From: Megasphaera sp. NM10
GTDB taxonomy: Bacteria; Bacillota; Negativicutes; Veillonellales; Megasphaeraceae
Length of the DNA stretch: 32,634 bases
Direction: 5' to 3'
NCBI RefSeq assembly: GCF_000417505.1
Contig: NZ_APHY01000072.1
Location: 1 to 32,634, forward strand
Shown here: positions 992-32,634 of the stretch, piece by piece
How positions within the stretch are numbered: position 1 is the first letter of the stretch
Layout: each line of letters begins with the position of its first letter
Made by a program: the position numbers and the translations under genes
Notes under the pieces: generated by a model
What the model was told of the DNA's origin: nothing
What the model saw: only the letters and a program-made list of their open reading frames with translations
Databases searched by the model: none

Positions 992-3075
992 TTACTTGCT
1001 TTCGGCATCTTCCGGATTGAACTTGGTAATCAAGATGTGGCGGACGAAGATGGCGATCATGGCGATGAAGCAGAGCAGGCCGAGGATATCAGCTGTAGAC
1101 TGGAAGTCTTTGCCGACCAGGGCCAGCGGGTTTTCGCTGCCGCCGGAAGTAACGGAAACGACGATGAGCAAGGCGATGATGACGCCCATGAGGCTTTCGC
1201 CGACGATGAGGCCCGATGCAAAGAGGACACCGCGATGATTGCAGGCTTCTACGTCTTCTTCTTCGTGGCCAGGGCTGCGGCGGGCAGCGCGGGCTTTCAG
1301 GGACTTATGGATGAGATAACCCATGACCGAACCGATGACCAGAGGGATTTCCAGTGTCGGCGGCAGGTAAATGCCCATGCCGACAGCCAGCGGCGGCAAT
1401 GCCAGGGATTTCGTGTTTTTCGTCAAAATGAGGTCGATGATGATGGCGGCGATACCGACACCGAAGAGGATGTAGTTCCAGTCGAGGCTGGCACTGAAGA
1501 TACCTTGGGCGATGGTCGTCATCAAGGTTGCCTGCGGAGCTGCCAGGGCCTGGGTCGGATCCATGCCGGCACGGGGAAGGGCACCGGTGAAGCCATAGGC
1601 CTGATAGAGCAGGTTCAGGACCGGAGCGATGGCGAAGGAGCCGATGATCGAGCCCAGGATGAGGGCGACCTGCTGTTTCCACGGCGTAGCGCCGACGAGG
1701 TAGCCTGTCTTGAGGTCCTGCAGGTTATCGTTGGAAATAGAAGCGATGCTGACGATGACGCTGGTGATGAAGATAGCAAAGGCCGTAGCGAACTGCGTGC
1801 CCTGCATGGTTTCAAAGACACCGGCCGAAGAGCCGATACCGAGGACGACCAGGGACGATACGATGATGCCCAGGATGCCGATACCGGAAATCGGGCTGGC
1901 CGACGTGCCGATGAGGCCTGCCATGTAACCGCAGGCAGCAGCGACGAAGAAGCCCATGAGGATGGCGACCAGGATGCCGACGACGATGAACATGAGCGTT
2001 ACCGACATGGAAAGGCCGGCGTTGCTGACGAAGGTGTAGAAAGTGATGAACAAGCCGATAAGGATGGCCAGGAAGACCAGGCCGACCGATTTCGGCGACA
2101 TGTCGATGTCCGTATGATGGAGTATCTTCTTTTCTTCCGTATCGTTGGCGCGCAATGCGTTGATGGACATCTTGATGCCGTCGACGACCGGTTTGGCCAG
2201 GCGGATCAAGGTCCAGACAGCGGCGATACCGATGCAGCCGGCACCGATGAAGCGGACTTTCTGAGCCAGATGGCCTTGGCGAAAGCGGCGGCACTCTGGC
2301 CTTCAGCCGGCGTGATGACCGACGTCAGATAGGGAACGAAGACGTACCAGGCCAGGAGCGTACCGACTAAGATAGCCATGCCGCTGGCGATGCCGATGAG
2401 GTAACCCGCGCCGAGGAGGGCTGTCGAAAAGCCCAGGGGAATCTGGGTGACGGCTTTGCCGAACGAGAGCCAGTAGCTGAATTCGGAAGAAACGACGTGG
2501 AAGCCGTTGGAACAGAGACTGAAGAGACCAGCCAGGGCCGTGCCGCCGACGATATCTTTCATGCCTGTTTCTTTTTTGCTTGTGTCTTCGCCGTTGGCTT
2601 CTTCCTTGCGGATTTCACTGCCGACTTTCAGGATTTCAGCAGCAGCCCGGCCTTCCGGATACGGCAGGTCGCTGTTGACGACCATAGCCCGGCGCAGGGG
2701 GATAGTGAACAAGACCCCGAGAGAGCCGCCGCAGGCGCAGAGCAGCAGGGTCTGCCAGAACGGGAAGCCCTGCCAGTACCCCAGCATGAGCAAGCCCGGC
2801 AGGATGAAGATGATTGCAGATAAAGTGCCGGCAGCAGATGCCTGCGTCTGTACCATGTTATTTTCCAGGATGTTGGAATGTTTGAACATGCGCAGGATTG
2901 CCATGGAGATGACTGCAGCCGGGATGGACGACGAGAACGTCAGGCCGACTTTTAAGCCCAGGTATACGTTGGAAGCCGTAAAGATAACGGTGATCAGGGC
3001 GCCGAGGATCATACCGCGGGCCGTCAATTCCGGCATACTTGGGTAGTTCACAGTCAGATTTGATTGTGGTTTCAT
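992..3075 (-). CDS. OPT-family oligopeptide transporter (apparent frameshift near 2266)
   Basis: This is an integral membrane transporter of about 694 residues once one base is restored. It is expected to take up oligopeptides or metal chelates with a cation. The N-terminal half contains TASNVYLGLKVGLTFSSS and NNMVQTQASAAGT, hallmarks of the OPT/YSL family, and many hydrophobic helices run to the end. I start at the ATG at 3073-3075, eight bases after GGGAGG, rather than at longer in-frame starts. Around 2266 the plus strand reads GAGCCAGA; GAGCCCAGA would join AKAIW to AQKVRFIGAGCIGIAA and continue into IRLAKPVV. The second piece alone has no ribosome site. The gene diverges from pepD, so peptide import and dipeptide cleavage are encoded back to back. 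Confidence 0.85.
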
Positions 3076-3176
3076 AGAAAAACCTCCCAAATAAAAATTA
3101 AGCAGTACTAAAACGTACAACTTCACTGACGCTTATATTATACTCAATTTTTTTGCATTCGTCATATATCAATTTG

Positions 3177-4935: not shown

Positions 4936-4968
4936 AAAAGAGGCTGTCTTCATGCGACAGCCTCTTTT
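4936..4968 (+). terminator. Terminator of pepD (GCTGTC family)
   Basis: AAAAGAGGCTGTC pairs with GACAGCCTCTTTT at 4956-4968 around a seven-base loop. It is separated from the pepD stop codon by about 150 bases of repeat elements. Confidence 0.85.
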
Positions 4969-5034
4969 GTTGTATTTGCAACGGTTTTATTTGGATATTT
5001 TTGCTATAGTATAAGTGTACGAAAAGGGGGGAGT

Positions 5035-5295
5035 ATGATGGAAAAAACGCATATTGACCGACTGGTTACACCCGATTATTTTAACCGCAAGGAATGTGAA
5101 GGCTGCGGCTGTTGCATCAGTATCTGCCCGTATGAAGCTTTGTCGATGCAGACCTGCGCCGACGGCATCCGGCGGCCCCGCGTCGATATGACTAAATGTC
5201 TGCGCTGCAACCGCTGTATGGATGCTTGTGAAATTTACAAGTGTTACTATATTCCTCAAAAACAATATGAAACTGCCAGGAGGGCTGCACTATGA
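5035..5295 (+). CDS. Two-cluster [4Fe-4S] ferredoxin-like protein
   Basis: This 86-residue protein has two bacterial ferredoxin motifs: CEGCGCCISICP (Cys21, 24, 27, 31) and CLRCNRCMDAC (Cys55, 58, 61, 65). Further cysteines occur at 26, 41 and 70. It should carry two [4Fe-4S] clusters and pass electrons. The start ATG at 5035 follows AAAAGGGGGGAG; a second ATG is adjacent. Its stop overlaps the start of the next gene by four bases (ATGA), so the two are translationally coupled. That makes it the likely electron donor or partner of the downstream diiron protein. Confidence 0.8.
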   Translation: MMEKTHIDRLVTPDYFNRKECEGCGCCISICPYEALSMQTCADGIRRPRVDMTKCLRCNRCMDACEIYKCYYIPQKQYETARRAAL

Positions 5296-5993
5296 AATAC
5301 TCGCTGAATCCACACATCTTTGTCTTTGGCAAGACCATCAAGAAGCCGAAGATTTCCATTTCTTTTTTATCTTACCTGCTTCGGGGGAAACAGAATATCC
5401 TCATCGACACGGTTCCCGATAAAGCAGCCGATGCCTATATCCAGGACATCGAAAGTGTCCTGCCTGTCAGCCAGATCGATGCCCTGATTCTCAACCATTC
5501 CGAAGAAGACCATAGCGGAGCCCTGCAGGCCGTCCTGGACCGTCATCCCCAGCTGCCCATCTACTGCACGCCGGCCACGAAGGAACGGCTCCAGCCGACG
5601 TATCCGGAAGCTGATTTCCGCGTCGTCCAGCATGGCGAAAGCCTGACGTTAGGCGATTATACCTTCCAGTTCATCCATACGCCGGGGCTCCACTGGCCGG
5701 ATAATATGGTCACCTGGCTGGCTTCGGAAAAAATCCTCTTCTCCAATGACCTCTTTGGCCAGTATTTAGCCGAAGAACCGCCGGTCGATGCCGGTTATTC
5801 CAAGGAAGCCATCCTCAAAGGCACCGAACCCTATTTTGAACGGGTCTTTGCCCCTGCCTCTGAAAGCGATAAAGCCATCATCGCCGATATCGCCGCTATG
5901 CCTATCCAGACAGCAGCAACCGGCCATGGCCTCATCTTGCAGAGCCAATGGCCGGCTGTCCGGGATTTCTATGTATCACACGTGATCAAATAA
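5292..5993 (+). CDS. Stand-alone flavodiiron-type diiron domain (ODP-like, MBL fold)
   Basis: This 233-residue protein has the metallo-beta-lactamase fold in its flavodiiron version. The diiron ligand set appears complete: HSEEDH gives His69, Glu71, Asp73 and His74; GLHWPDN gives His134; SNDLFG gives Asp153; ATGHGL gives His212. The spacing matches flavodiiron proteins. The C-terminal flavodoxin (FMN) domain of those enzymes is absent and the protein ends just after the domain. Such FMN-less proteins are known as oxygen-binding diiron proteins. Likely roles are O2 or NO sensing or reduction, with electrons from the coupled ferredoxin. The gene overlaps the convergent downstream gene by 18 bases. 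Confidence 0.8.
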   Translation: MKYSLNPHIFVFGKTIKKPKISISFLSYLLRGKQNILIDTVPDKAADAYIQDIESVLPVSQIDALILNHSEEDHSGALQAVLDRHPQLPIYCTPATKERLQPTYPEADFRVVQHGESLTLGDYTFQFIHTPGLHWPDNMVTWLASEKILFSNDLFGQYLAEEPPVDAGYSKEAILKGTEPYFERVFAPASESDKAIIADIAAMPIQTAATGHGLILQSQWPAVRDFYVSHVIK

Positions 5994-6596
5994 ATATTTC
6001 GTATCGTAACTGAGGTCCATGTACTGCGCAATCGTTTCGTCGTCGAATCCGTATTCTTCCGACTTATGGGTCAAATTACCCCATTTGATCTGGAGCTTCT
6101 TCTTGGAATTCAAGGGTTCTTCGTATTCGATGCGCAGTTCTTGTGCTTCTTGGGAGTGGTCCTGGACCTTGACAAACAGGCCTTTGTCGAAAGTCAGCTC
6201 GTAGACTTTTCGGAAAGCATGGGGAAGCTGGAAACCGAAGGGAACGAAGTATTTATCGATGAAGCTGTTGGCGATGAGGATGGACCCGCTGTAATCCATG
6301 ACGTGGTTGAGTTCATATTTCAGGTCCCCTGCCGGCGAATGGAAGGAAACGGGATGGATGCCGTCGATGGCAGGCGGTTCCATGCCGTTGTTATTGGTCA
6401 GCAATTTATGGAGGGTCAGCATCTTTTCATCGTTGAAGCCGAAGATCGCCGTATATCCGCGCAGGCAGGCTTCATTGTACATGATGGGATGGAGGCCGAA
6501 TTCCTCGATGTTAAAGAAGTCGTCCACCTCTTCGATGGCGACGATACTGAATTTATACGTGGCAAAATCGAAACCGTCAAAAAATTGGGCGCGCAT
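5976..6596 (-). CDS. Conserved-looking protein of unknown function, second gene of the xpt operon
   Basis: I do not recognise this 206-residue protein. It begins MRAQFFDGFDF, is acidic, and shows no signal peptide, membrane helix or cysteine motif. It looks like a soluble globular protein with alternating aromatic and charged segments. Its AAGGAG ribosome site overlaps the stop codon of xpt twelve bases upstream, so it is almost certainly cotranscribed and coupled with xpt. Its 3' end overlaps the convergent diiron gene by 18 bases, with no terminator between them. The tight coupling suggests a purine-related or housekeeping role, but that is inference only. Confidence 0.6.
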   Translation of the reverse strand: MRAQFFDGFDFATYKFSIVAIEEVDDFFNIEEFGLHPIMYNEACLRGYTAIFGFNDEKMLTLHKLLTNNNGMEPPAIDGIHPVSFHSPAGDLKYELNHVMDYSGSILIANSFIDKYFVPFGFQLPHAFRKVYELTFDKGLFVKVQDHSQEAQELRIEYEEPLNSKKKLQIKWGNLTHKSEEYGFDDETIAQYMDLSYDTKYLFDHV

Positions 6597-6607
6597 GATG
6601 ATTCTCC

Positions 6608-7182
6608 TTATTCGACGAAGACAGGTTTGTTATTTTCAAAACGGGCGATGCGGGCCAGAGATTCGACGCGGAAGCCTTTATCTTCCAACGTCCTGCGGCC
6701 GCTCTGGAAAGTCTTTTCGACGACGATGCCGATACCGGCGACAGTACAGCCTGCCTGGCGACGATGTCCGTCAGGCCGACGGCAGCAGCTCCACTGGCCA
6801 GGAAGTCATCGATGATGAGAACCGATTCGCCGGCGTGGAGATAGGCTTTGCTGATCGTTGCCGTATATTCTTCTTCTTTCGTATACGAGTAGATCTTGGC
6901 CGTATACTGTTCGCCCTTGGTGAGCAGGGATTTCTTCTTGCGGGCAAAGACGATAGGCAGGTTGCCCATGGCCAGGGAAGCCGCATAGGCTACGGCGATG
7001 CCCGAAGCCTCGATGGTGACGATGCGGTCGATGTGTACGTCTTTGAAACGGCGGGCGAACTCCTGACCGACGTGATTGATGAGGTTCGTATCGATTTGCT
7101 GGTTCAAAAAGTTATCAATCTTCAAAATCCGGTTGTCGATGACCAGGCCATCCTGTAAAATTCGCTGTTTCAATTCTTCCAT
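6608..7182 (-). CDS. xpt: Xanthine phosphoribosyltransferase (apparent frameshift near 6750)
   Basis: This enzyme converts xanthine and PRPP to XMP in purine salvage. The sequence follows Bacillus Xpt closely: [12 protein letters not shown] at the N terminus, [10 protein letters not shown] (residues 57-66), FARKKKSLL, and the PRPP site [11 protein letters not shown] (121-131). I choose the ATG at 7182 because it matches the family start and lies about eleven bases after GGGAGG; two in-frame upstream ATGs are possible. After IVARQA the frame breaks. The continuation [18 protein letters not shown] and [12 protein letters not shown] to a stop at 6608 lies one frame over. Adding one base near 6748-6751 restores it. 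Confidence 0.88.
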
Positions 7183-7356
7183 TACTTCCATGTCCTCCCT
7201 GTGATGAAAAATGGTAAACATTGTCTACTATAATAGTACTAGTCTAATACGATTTTATAGGCAAGTCAATAAAATTCTAAGTTTACTTATGGTTTTAAAA
7301 CAGGTATACTAAAGTTGTCTAATGATAAGTTATCTATCTTTGAGGGAGGTCATGAC

Positions 7357-10300
7357 ATGCAGTCTATCCGACGTTTGTATGTTGCCAAGAACGGTGTTTT
7401 TGCTGACGAAGCAAAACGATTGCTCACTGATTTACAGGAAAACCTGTTGATTAAAGGGTTGACCGATATTCACATTTACCACCGCTATGACGTATCCGGG
7501 CTCGATGATGCGGCTTTTGAAGCGGCTAAAAATATGATTTTCTCCGAACCGCCTGTCGATGCCGTCTATGACGAATTGCCGGTTGGCAAGGACGACACGG
7601 TCCTGGCCGTCGAATATCTGCCGGGCCAGTACGATCAGCGCGCCGATTCGGCCATGCAGTGCCTGCAGATGCTGACCATGAAGAACGACAGCCTCGTCCG
7701 CACGGCACAGGTCCTCGTTTTGTCCGGCAGCTTATCCGCTGATGACGTCGCTGCCATCAAACATTATTGCATCAACCCCGTCGAAGCCCGCGAAGCCTCG
7801 CTGGACCCCGTTTCGACGCTGGAAATGCCCTGGGAAAAACCGGCTGACGTCCCCGTCATCGACGGCTTCGATGCCATGGATGACGCCGCTTTGAAAGAAC
7901 TGTCGGCACACATGGGCCTGGCCATGAGCTTCGACGATTTGAAGTTCGTCCAGACCTACTTCCGGGATGAAGAAAAACGGAATCCGACAGTGACGGAAAT
8001 CCGCGTCATCGACACCTATTGGTCGGACCACTGCCGTCATACGACGTTCATGACCGAACTCACGGATGTTTCTTTTGAAAACGGGACGTTTACGGCGCCC
8101 ATCCAGCGCGCTTATGAATCATATAAGACGACGCGGGAAAACTTGAACCGTAAGAAACCACAGACCCTCATGGATATGGCGACTATTGCCGTCAAAGAAT
8201 TGAAAGCTGCCGGTAAACTCGATAACCTTGACGAATCGGAAGAAATCAACGCCTGCACGATCATCATCCCTGTCGATGTCGATGGCGTCGAAGAAGAATG
8301 GCTCCTCCTCTTCAAGAATGAAACCCATAACCACCCGACGGAAATCGAACCGTTCGGCGGCGCAGCTACCTGCCTGGGCGGCTGTATCCGCGACCCCTTG
8401 AGCGGCCGTTCCTATGTCTATCAGGCCATGCGCGTCACCGGTGCTGGCGACCCGCGCCAGTCGGTCAAGGATACGCTCGTCGGCAAACTGCCCCAGCGTA
8501 AGCTGACGACAGGCGCTGCCAAGGGCTACAGCTCTTATGGCAACCAGATCGGCCTGGCTACGGGCGAAGTCAAAGAATATTACAACCCCGGCTTCATTGC
8601 CAAGCGCATGGAAATCGGTGCCGTCCTCGGCGCAGCTCCGCGCAATAACGTCGTTCGCGAAGAACCGCTCCCTGGCGACATCATCATTCTCCTCGGCGGC
8701 AAGACCGGCCGCGACGGCTGCGGCGGTGCTACGGGCTCGTCCAAGAAACATACCGTCGAATCCCTGGAAACGTGCGGCGCCGAAGTCCAGAAGGGCAATG
8801 CCCTGACGGAACGCAAGATCCAGCGCCTCTTCCGCCGCCATGAAGTCACGGTACTCATCAAACGCTGCAACGACTTCGGTGCCGGCGGTGTCTCCGTCGC
8901 TATCGGCGAATTGACAGACGGTCTGGACATCAACCTCGACAAAGTCCCGAAGAAATACGAAGGCCTGGACGGTACGGAACTGGCTATTTCCGAATCGCAG
9001 GAACGTATGGCTGTCGTCGTCGCTCCGGAACACGTCGATGAATTCATGAAATATGCCGCCGAAGAAAACCTGGAAGCGACGATCGTCGCTGTCGCTACGG
9101 ATACAAAACGCCTGGTCATGCACTGGCGCGACCAGAACGTCGTCAATATTACCCGCGCTTTCCTCGATACCAACGGCGTCACCCAGCATCGCAAAGCCGT
9201 CGTCGTCGCTCCGGAAGACAAAGATTTCTTCAAGCTCCGGAAGTCAAAGACGTCGCCAAGACCTGGCTCGATACCATGGGTACCCTGAATATCGCCTCTG
9301 AACAGGGCCTGGCCGAACGCTTCGACAGCACCATCGGCGCCCGCACGGTCCTCATGCCCTTTGGCGGCAAATACCAGAAGACGCCGGTCGAAGGCATGGT
9401 TGCCAAGATTCCGGTCGAACACGGCAATACGACGACGGCCAGCATCTTCACCCATGGCTATGATCCGGACCTGGCTATCTGGAGCCCCTTCCACGGTGCC
9501 CTCTACGCCGTCATCCAGTCCATTGCCAAACTGGTAGCCCTCGGCGGCGACCGCAAAAAAGTCTATCTGACCATGCAGGAATTCTTCCAGAGCCTGGGAA
9601 CCAATGAAAAGGCCTGGGGCCAGCCGGTCAGCGCCCTCCTCGGTGCTTTCGTAGCCCAGCAGGTCATGGAAGTGGCCGCTATCGGCGGGAAAGACAGCAT
9701 GAGCGGTACCTTTGAAAACCTCACCGTTCCGCCGACGCTCGTTTCCTTTGCCATTGCACCGGAACACACGAACCATATCATCTCACCGGAATTCAAAGCC
9801 GCTGACGACGCAGTCCTCCTCTTCGACCTGCCCCGTGACGCTGAAGAAATGCCGGACTTCGATACTTTTAAAGCCCACTGCGATTTCCTCCATCAGGCTG
9901 TCCTCGATGGTAAAATCAAAGCCATGCATGCCGTCGGTCAGGGCGGTATCGCCGCTGCCGTCGCCCAGATGGCCTTTGGCAATGGCATTGGCTTCGCCGT
10001 TGATGCATCCTTTGCTACGCAGGAACTGTTCAACCTCCGCTATGGCTCGATCCTCGTCGAAACCGACGCTGCTACGGCTGCTGAATGGGTCAAACGGGCT
10101 CACGTTTCCCTCGTCGGCAAGACGACGGCTGCTGCTGATGTGACCGTCGATGGCGTGACGATTTCTCTGAAAGACCTCCAGGATGCCTGGGAAAAACCGC
10201 TGAGCCACGTCTTCCCCATCAAGAGCGAAAGCGGTACAGGTGATGCCGAACTGCCGCTGTTCACGACGTATGGTCCGCGCCGCAGCGAAGCCTTTGGTAC

Positions 10301-11098
10301 GCCGCGGGTCTTCATTCCCGTCTGCCCGGGCACGAACTGCGAATACGACTCGGCCGCTGCCTTTGAACGGGCTGGCGCTACGACGGATGTCATGGTACTG
10401 CGCAACAACACGCCGCAGGATCTGGCAGAATCTATCGATGAAATGGCTAAACGTATTGCCAAAGCCCAGATCATCATGTTCCCTGGCGGCTTCAGTGCCG
10501 GTGACGAACCGGAAGGTTCAGGCAAGTTCATTGCCACCTTGTTCCGCAACCCGGTCCTGTCGGAAGCCCTGGAAAACCTGCTCTATCAGCGCGATGGCCT
10601 GGCTCTCGGCATCTGCAACGGCTTCCAGGCCCTGATTAAACTCGGTCTTCTGCCTTACGGTCATGTCCAGCCGTTGAAAGCTGACAGCCCGACGCTGACA
10701 TACAATACCATTGGCCGCCATCTGTCGCGCATGGTCGAAACCAAGGTCGTTTCCGTCATGAGCCCGTGGTTCAGCAGCTGCAAAGCCGGTGACGTCCACA
10801 CCGTCGCCATCTCCCATGGCGAAGGCCGTTTTGTCGCCACACCGGAACAGATTCGCGAACTGGCTGCCAAAGGCCAGATTGCCACACAGTACGTCGACCT
10901 TTCCGGCAAAGCGACTTATGACAGCGAATACAACCCGAACCAGTCGGTCCTGGCAGTCGAAGGCATTACCAGCCCGATGGCCGTGTCCTGGGCAAGATGG
11001 CGCACACCGAACGCTTCAGCGCCGAAGACGTCTTCCAGAACATCGCTGGCAACAAACTCCAGCTGATCTTCAAATCGGGCGTAGAATATTTTAAATAA
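7357..11098 (+). CDS. purL: Phosphoribosylformylglycinamidine synthase, long PurL-PurQ form (two apparent frameshifts)
   Basis: This is the fourth step of purine synthesis, FGAR plus glutamine and ATP to FGAM. The long form, about 1247 residues, fuses the synthetase to its glutaminase. I start at the ATG at 7357 after GGGAGGT. Visible blocks are the N-terminal domain, YWSDHCRHTTF, FKNETHNHPTEIEPFGG, GGKTGRDGCGGATGSS, FGAGGVSVAIGEL, and a C-terminal amidotransferase with PGTNCEY, FPGGFSAGDE, the nucleophile Cys in GICNGFQ, and SHGEGRF. The frame breaks near 9232 (FFK to APEVKDVAKTW) and again near 10976 (ITSP to DGRVLGKMAHTERF). With both repaired the protein ends SGVEYFK at 11098. Both halves keep catalytic residues, so sequence error is likelier than decay. 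Confidence 0.93.
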
Positions 11099-31986: not shown

Positions 31987-32062
31987 TGGAGCCACTAATA
32001 GGATTCGAACCTACGACCCTCTCATTACGAATGAGATGCTCTGCCAGCTGAGCTATAGTGGC
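31987..32062 (-). tRNA. tRNA-Thr (anticodon CGT)
   Basis: The 76-base gene folds as a full cloverleaf. The acceptor stem is GCCACTA with TAGTGGC. The D-arm is AGCTCAGCTGGCAGAGC and the T-loop is GGTTCGAATCC. The anticodon loop TTCGTAA on a TCTCA/TGAGA stem gives anticodon CGT, reading ACG. The 3' CCA is encoded. A perfect promoter lies upstream on the same strand. Confidence 0.97.
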
Positions 32063-32557: not shown

Positions 32558-32634
32558 ATCATGGAGAGTTTGATCCTGGCTCAGGACGAACGCTGGCGGC
32601 GTGCTTAACACATGCAAGTCGAACGAGAAGAGAT
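32558..32634 (+). rRNA. 16S ribosomal RNA, 5' end only
   Basis: AGAGTTTGATCCTGGCTCAG (the universal position 8-27 segment) begins at 32565, so base 1 falls near 32558. The sequence continues GACGAACGCTGGCGGCGTGC and stops at the window edge inside the V1 region. The bases GAACGAGAAGAGAT agree with my memory of Megasphaera 16S. Confidence 0.98.

Follow-up and report, generated by a model that had tools for sequence, protein, structure and literature searches.

The window, a stretch of 32,634 nucleotides from Megasphaera sp. NM10, contains two overlapping genes on the forward strand. The first gene (positions 5035..5295) encodes a 2[4Fe-4S] ferredoxin of 86 residues, referred to here as Fd; alignment places its start codon probably at position 5038. 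The second gene (5292..5993) encodes a protein of 233 residues, the diiron protein, which is identified by Pfam, by its ligands and by a structural model as a flavodiiron metallo-β-lactamase domain without FMN. The two-cluster ferredoxin had been described as overlapping the start of the diiron gene by four bases, and this overlap, ATGA, is exact in its coordinates. The next gene, p206 (206 residues; 5976..6596, reverse strand), is convergent and runs into the diiron gene with its last 18 bases. On the upstream side, a hairpin of 13 pairs resembling an intrinsic terminator (4936..4968, forward strand) lies between an M20 dipeptidase gene and the Fd unit. An Rfam scan of the window found two features only, both at the window end: a tRNA-Thr (31987-32062, reverse strand) and the first 77 bases of a 16S rRNA gene (32558-32634, forward strand).

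The ferredoxin and the diiron protein

Pfam Fer4 matches Fd in a profile search. The protein has two CxxCxxCxxxC motifs (C21-24-27-31 and C55-58-61-65) and three additional cysteines. The first motif, C21xxC24xC26C27xxxC31P, is encoded by positions 5095..5127 and the second, C55xxC58xxC61xxxC65, by positions 5197..5229, both on the forward strand. C21, C24, C26, C27 and C31, as well as the second motif, are invariant in all nine aligned rows.

A Shine-Dalgarno-like AGGAGGG, read from the sequence within the Fd gene (5278..5284, forward strand), precedes the diiron gene with a spacer of 7 nt. A second species, G211, has GGGAGG at the equivalent position. Furthermore, the order of the two genes, their overlap and their length are the same in G211, where Fd is 82% and the diiron protein 91% identical to those of the window. 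Because the arrangement is identical in two species, neither the overlap nor the absent domain is a frameshift or an assembly error. Judging from the ATGA overlap, the separate ribosome site and the occurrence in both species, the two genes are translationally coupled and operon-like. The dN/dS ratio of the diiron gene between the window's own genome (G000) and G211 is about 0.08-0.11 (0.060/0.537 or 0.058/0.738, depending on which of two methods is used), and the gene is under purifying selection.

The confirmation from G211 matters because the xpt gene (xanthine phosphoribosyltransferase; 6577-7221, reverse strand) in the same window looks frameshifted. Compared to its relatives, residues 1-143 and 143-191 are in different frames, which is probably an assembly error. 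The purL gene (7315-11066, forward strand) is present as two overlapping frames of 657 and 596 residues, and this split suggests another frameshift in the draft genome. Two transporter-like frames at 992-3126 (reverse strand) are likewise frameshift-like.

The diiron ligands form the cluster H69-x-E71-x-D73-H74 (5496..5513), followed by H134 in LHWPD (5691..5693), D153 in SNDLFG (5748..5750) and H212 in TGHG (5925..5927), all located by alignments and all on the forward strand. The position of D153 is presumably that of the bridging ligand in flavodiiron proteins. All seven ligands are retained, as the initial annotation had proposed, and none of them varies in 27 aligned rows. The same positions are 99-100% conserved across 78 flavodiiron rows, and the ligand set His-x-Glu-x-Asp-His...His...Asp...His is the one given for flavodiiron proteins in PMC6033852. 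The absence of the flavodoxin domain was also borne out: in both species the protein extends no further than the border of the diiron domain. Thus, of the two-domain flavodiiron core, the diiron ligands are present and the C-terminal flavodoxin/FMN part is absent.

The Pfam ODP model matches the diiron protein with 67.6 bits, compared to a cut-off of 27.2. Flavorubredoxin models cover it only with their N-terminal half (residues 22-219 on model positions 32-234 of 479), and their scores are far under the whole-protein cut-offs. By sequence, the solved structures nearest to it are those of E. coli flavorubredoxin and further flavodiiron proteins. The AlphaFold model, with a pLDDT of 94.5 and a pTM of 0.92, is confident without a second domain. 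In structure alignments it can be superimposed onto residues 2-247 of E. coli flavorubredoxin with a Z of 33.1 over 231 residues at 31% identity, whereas the ODP chemotaxis sensor structures, the next matches after the flavodiiron proteins, give Z values of 23.5-25.6. The diiron protein therefore consists of a flavodiiron diiron domain alone, terminating at the domain border, and is nearer to flavodiiron proteins than to ODP. From its ligands and its predicted fold, two irons are expected in the standard flavodiiron site.

Outside the first shell, several positions that are conserved in the 78 flavodiiron rows are altered in the diiron protein. G22, Y25 and N26 of the N-terminal FHG...GTTYN loop are changed, the histidine of DxFGQH is a tyrosine (position 158), and the WR that follows the last ligand (HGxIWR) is LQ. 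We take several of the altered positions to lie on the flavin side. The alterations could mean that catalysis has been lost.

The initial annotation had offered an oxygen sensor as an alternative to an enzyme. In Treponema denticola, oxygen is reported to be sensed by a stand-alone diiron protein of the ODP fold (PMC7666581), and this precedent, together with the rank of the ODP structures in the alignments, would suit an ODP-like protein that senses or scavenges O2 or NO without steady turnover, with Fd only resetting the diiron site. However, the model is nearer to flavodiiron proteins (Z up to 33.1), no signalling gene adjoins the diiron gene, and the majority of the genes behind the operator described below are effectors. 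Furthermore, the MCP domain PF00015 has no match in the own genome, which is 99.85% complete, but has matches in 7 of 14 control genomes. A role as an oxygen sensor in chemotaxis, as known for ODP, is thus unlikely, and the broader reading as a sensor or scavenger appears improbable as well.

Distribution and history of the locus

Within the genus the diiron gene was found in two of 15 genomes, both times behind Fd. The pair is not conserved in Negativicutes, a point on which the initial annotation had asked for a check: among the matches listed for 300 genomes of the class, the short diiron gene occurs only in G000 and G211. In a 398-genome sample of the phylum, which is without G211, the short gene is present in the own genome only, again among the matches listed; the class and phylum lists comprise the stronger matches and could miss a strongly diverged short copy. 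The other strong matches listed in the phylum sample are longer frames, and even the two shortest (304 and 318 residues) include the start of a flavodoxin domain. A search of 84,980 species genomes, from which very near genomes may be left out, gave 61 loci, comprising 25 full-length flavodiiron-type frames of at least 387 residues and 36 loci that match over a short stretch only. The own genome, at 99.85% completeness, encodes two full-length flavodiiron proteins besides the diiron protein.

Plasmids and phages were considered as sources of the diiron gene and rejected. No plasmid match reaches 60% identity (62 records, the best 20 of which were inspected; the annotated ones are norV), and nine records of the phage collection match with 25-33% identity. 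Placement of the diiron protein in the flavodiiron tree failed. Its fork is weak (69/77) and its branch has a length of 4.7, so that no donor lineage emerges from the tree.

Fd is more widespread. Homologs (E below 1e-10) are present in 10 of the 15 genus genomes and, at the same threshold, in none of 46 other genomes of the order. In eight of the ten Fd-bearing genomes no diiron gene stands beside Fd, and in three of these (G003, G035 and G232) Fd has the same neighbors, xpt and p206, as in the window. Because Fd occurs without the diiron gene in eight genomes, in three of them at the same locus, it must have some other use. The net charge of Fd (K+R-D-E) is +3 and +2 in the two genomes with the diiron gene, and the diiron protein is acidic, with a charge of -8.7 at pH 7. 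In its three nearest relatives without the diiron gene Fd is itself acidic (-4, -4 and -2). The five remoter solitary ferredoxins vary between -1 and +2, so that charge complementarity between Fd and the diiron protein, as calculated from composition, is a mere hint.

No Pfam or NCBIfam model matches p206, but homologs are found in all 15 genus genomes (51-97% identical outside the own genome), near xpt and/or purL in 14 of them. The C-terminus of p206 follows the pattern [YF]MD[LI]SYxTKY[LM]F. In ten other genomes the protein ends in KYLF-stop (eight genomes), KYMF-stop (G241) or KYLFT-stop (G151). In the five species that have Fd at the p206 locus, that of the window included, the stop that in relatives follows KYLF has been lost and three residues have been gained. 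These are DHV or EHL where the diiron gene follows, and GRS or GRE where it is absent. The stop codon of the diiron gene lies within the antisense of the last codons of p206. In the simplest account, Fd would have entered beside p206, alone or together with the diiron gene, in the common ancestor of the five species. On the p206 tree, whose forks are weak, one change is needed for either a gain or a loss of the diiron gene.

This history invites another explanation of the short gene, namely that it is a truncated flavodiiron fragment of little function that lies behind an established regulon ferredoxin, with Fd serving Hcp or the full-length flavodiiron proteins. The position of the diiron stop codon in the antisense of a gene that lost its own stop, the long branch, the lack of orthologs beyond two species among the matches listed and the conservation of Fd alone would all agree with such a fragment. 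A dN/dS ratio of about 0.1, the seven retained ligands, the separate ribosome site and 91% identity in two species argue against it, and we consider it quite unlikely.

The operator and the genes that share it

A conserved palindrome was found by aligning the region before Fd in six genomes, and it is also present in G080, where Fd is at another locus. In the window the palindrome, TGTTGTATTTGCAACG, occupies positions 4968..4983, with the core GTTGN6CAAC at 4969-4982 and its center at about -41.5. A -10 element, TATAGT (5005..5010, forward strand), with a TG at 5002-5003, is located 22 bp from the core. We take a center at about -41.5 to be the position of a class II CRP/FNR activator. A sigma-70 consensus scan of the window did not have the Fd promoter among its predictions, probably because the promoter lacks a good -35 box.

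There are 25 occurrences of the pattern TGTTGYWWTTRCAAC, at 23 distinct sites, in 13 of the 15 genus genomes, compared to one of the reversed pattern. At 23 promoters, representing 21 sites, the distance from the core to a -10-like hexamer downstream is 22 bp in 19 and 23 bp in three; two sites without a gene start nearby (G151:C118 and G120:C29) are omitted from this count, and two divergent sites are counted both ways. The sole promoter without a spaced -10 belongs to a regulator gene, whose divergent partner has the 22 bp spacing. In G035 and G232 an equally good TATAAT is also found 37 bp away. The combined pattern GTTGN6CAAC-N22/23-TATAnT has 64 matches in 14 of the 15 genomes and two in the reversed control; the corresponding numbers in the own genome are eight and zero. 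All ten Fd homologs have a site 22 bp from a -10 element if three half-altered sites, GTTGN6TCAC in G235, G223 and G172, are added to the seven with GTTGN6CAAC; the half-altered form was added after inspection, and the count is 7/10 without it. When the regions upstream of Fd were shuffled, site and -10 appeared together in 1 of 30,000 cases.

Looser searches were discarded. With up to three mismatches, operator matches in the window are no more numerous than expected by chance, 42 of 100 shuffles having at least as many, and with one mismatch the own genome has 13 matches versus seven in the control, which is hardly specific. A clear excess over the control is seen for two patterns only, the exact palindrome and its combination with a spaced -10.

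The first genes behind the 64 sites were assigned by eye, with Pfam and NCBIfam names taken from representatives. They are hcp (10), a DUF1858 gene (10), a FrdX-like two-cluster 4Fe-4S protein (9), Fd (7), a cupin (7), a flavodoxin (5), a 61-residue ferredoxin (5), a full flavodiiron gene in first position (2, including a 5'-shortened frame in G151), an acetyltransferase (2), a CRP/FNR regulator (1), a lactate/malate dehydrogenase (1) and unclear or apparently unrelated genes (5). At L265 and L271 the gene seen is the second of a DUF1858 operon, and at L245 it is the diiron gene behind Fd. The NCBIfam name of the DUF1858 gene is hybrid cluster protein-associated. The operator and -10 configuration before Fd, newly found here, is thus common to hcp and other genes. 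The Fd-diiron unit (C72) and hcp (C92) share the operator in G000, and both also have it in G211.

In G000, G211 and G151, which account for three of the seven cupin sites, a full-length flavodiiron gene comes after the cupin gene. The double-cupin gene of the own genome, on contig C99, is operonic with the full-length flavodiiron gene (L177 3449-4195 and 2078-3409) and has the same operator. G003, G035 and G232 have the cupin site and the full-length flavodiiron gene on different contigs. The L-lactate/malate dehydrogenase gene (own genome C8, L165 1501-1594), with the operator 23 bp from the -10, was found in G000 only among the 15 genomes. A small GNAT acetyltransferase-like protein, its family assigned by eye, has the operator in G080 and G043 (L216 and L225, about 1500).

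A CRP/FNR regulator is present in all 15 genus genomes. In G043 and G116 the operator is common to the regulator gene and the FrdX-like gene; the regulator gene of G000 (G000:C66:30581-31240) has a GTTGN6CAAC site about 28 bp before it. The regulator has no NCBIfam model at E 1e-15 or better, and its nearest solved structure is Lmo0753. HcpR regulons are reported to hold hcp, frdX and ferredoxin- or hemerythrin-like genes, and their operators to change along with the recognition helix (PMC1274295). By analogy, the genes behind the operator appear to be an HcpR-like nitrosative-stress regulon, and the CRP/FNR-family protein is its candidate regulator. According to PMC12915319, hcp and frdX of C. 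difficile are induced by NO by way of HcpR, and an hcpR mutant shows sensitivity to nitrogen species but none to oxygen species. This difference favors NO over O2. Rex is reported to bind sites identical to those of HcpR1 (PMC5701242), and the operator could belong to Rex or a different redox regulator.

Possible function and comparison with known systems

The initial annotation had proposed that the pair is a split O2/NO reductase. The FMN-less domain and the coupled ferredoxin on which this proposal was based are present, and the operator that the pair has in common with hcp and the full-length flavodiiron operon makes it more plausible; the limited conservation of the pair counts against it. 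The reading that we prefer, with a probability of roughly 0.4, is that the pair is an add-on arm of a nitrosative-stress (perhaps also oxygen-stress) regulon, in which a lineage-specific FMN-less diiron domain most likely serves as a ferredoxin-fed reductase of NO (or O2). The synthesis of Fd would be switched on when an HcpR-like activator of the CRP/FNR family binds the palindrome at -41.5. The flavodoxin-less diiron domain, which in one lineage stands behind Fd and is translated together with it, is expected to bind two irons in the standard site. The domain would most likely reduce NO (or O2) with electrons from the co-made Fd, which may dock where the FMN of the partner subunit sits in ordinary flavodiiron proteins. 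NO or O2 is the likely substrate because of the place of the diiron gene in the regulon, and Fd is the likeliest electron source, since both proteins come from one unit and the usual flavin is missing.

A flavodoxin in trans is another candidate for the electron donor. A stand-alone flavodoxin of 151 residues carries the operator of the diiron unit in G000, G211 and three relatives, and FMN is the usual donor to the flavodiiron site (PMC6033852). This flavodoxin might reduce the diiron domain, forming a flavodiiron protein split into two, while Fd would feed the flavodoxin or something else. However, the three relatives, G003, G035 and G232, have the flavodoxin with its operator and are all without the diiron gene, and the flavodoxin gene is not adjacent to the Fd-diiron pair. 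The altered residues of the diiron protein may include, as we assume, those that meet the flavodoxin half, which also counts against a flavodoxin donor. Such an arrangement is rather unlikely, although as an alternative donor the flavodoxin has to be taken seriously.

Within the preferred reading of a ferredoxin-fed reductase, the most specific form is a flavin-free NO/O2 reductase of two proteins in which Fd occupies the FMN seat, and which arose in one lineage as a flavodoxin-less domain came to lie behind a stress-regulon ferredoxin. This form is put forward tentatively, its probability being rather low. Flavodiiron proteins are understood as a diiron center plus FMN, the FMN being the immediate electron donor. 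An FMN-less version that is under selection, is made together with a ferredoxin and has the operator of an ordinary flavodiiron operon allows a direct test of whether a flavodiiron center can be driven by an iron-sulfur cluster. Furthermore, the regulon, with its operator, spacing, members and candidate activator, is a concrete and testable map of the nitrosative-stress response in the genus. In open-access literature searched by title and the start of the abstract, a collection that mostly leaves out subscription papers, no account was found of an FMN-less flavodiiron protein with a ferredoxin; a search of the same kind had no account of an HcpR regulon in this genus or group among the papers listed.

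The regulon resembles the HcpR regulons described in PMC1274295 in combining a CRP/FNR regulator, hcp and ferredoxin-like genes with a palindromic operator, to which a DUF1858 gene is added here. Unlike in those regulons, the operator is GTTGYnnnnRCAAC and not GTAACnnnnGTTAC or TGTGAn6TCACA, and a flavin-less diiron gene is included. The HcpR1 cluster of Desulfovibrio desulfuricans, which is NO-responsive, contains a flavodoxin, an FMN protein and a 4Fe-4S ferredoxin (PMC5701242). The combination of ferredoxin and flavodoxin is alike in the two regulons, but the genes that this source names for the cluster include no diiron protein.

The diiron protein resembles the ODP sensors of Treponema denticola and Thermotoga maritima in being a stand-alone diiron domain without FMN. 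It differs in its genetic context because ODP is described as genetically coupled to a chemoreceptor (PMC7666581), whereas no MCP domain was found in the own genome of the diiron gene. The T. maritima ODP is reported, in the description given in PMC7785958, to have an altered histidine ligand; H74 is kept in the diiron protein.

The likeness is closest to the class A/B flavodiiron proteins, such as the E. coli flavorubredoxin NorV, ROO and FprA, with which the diiron protein shares the metallo-β-lactamase diiron domain and the seven ligands (Z about 32-33). The link extends to regulation: the same operator precedes the diiron unit and the cupin-flavodiiron operon of the own genome. Unlike the class A/B proteins, the diiron protein is changed in the FHG..GTTYN loop, in the histidine of DxFGQH and in the WR of HGxIWR, and it has no flavodoxin/FMN domain but a co-translated ferredoxin.
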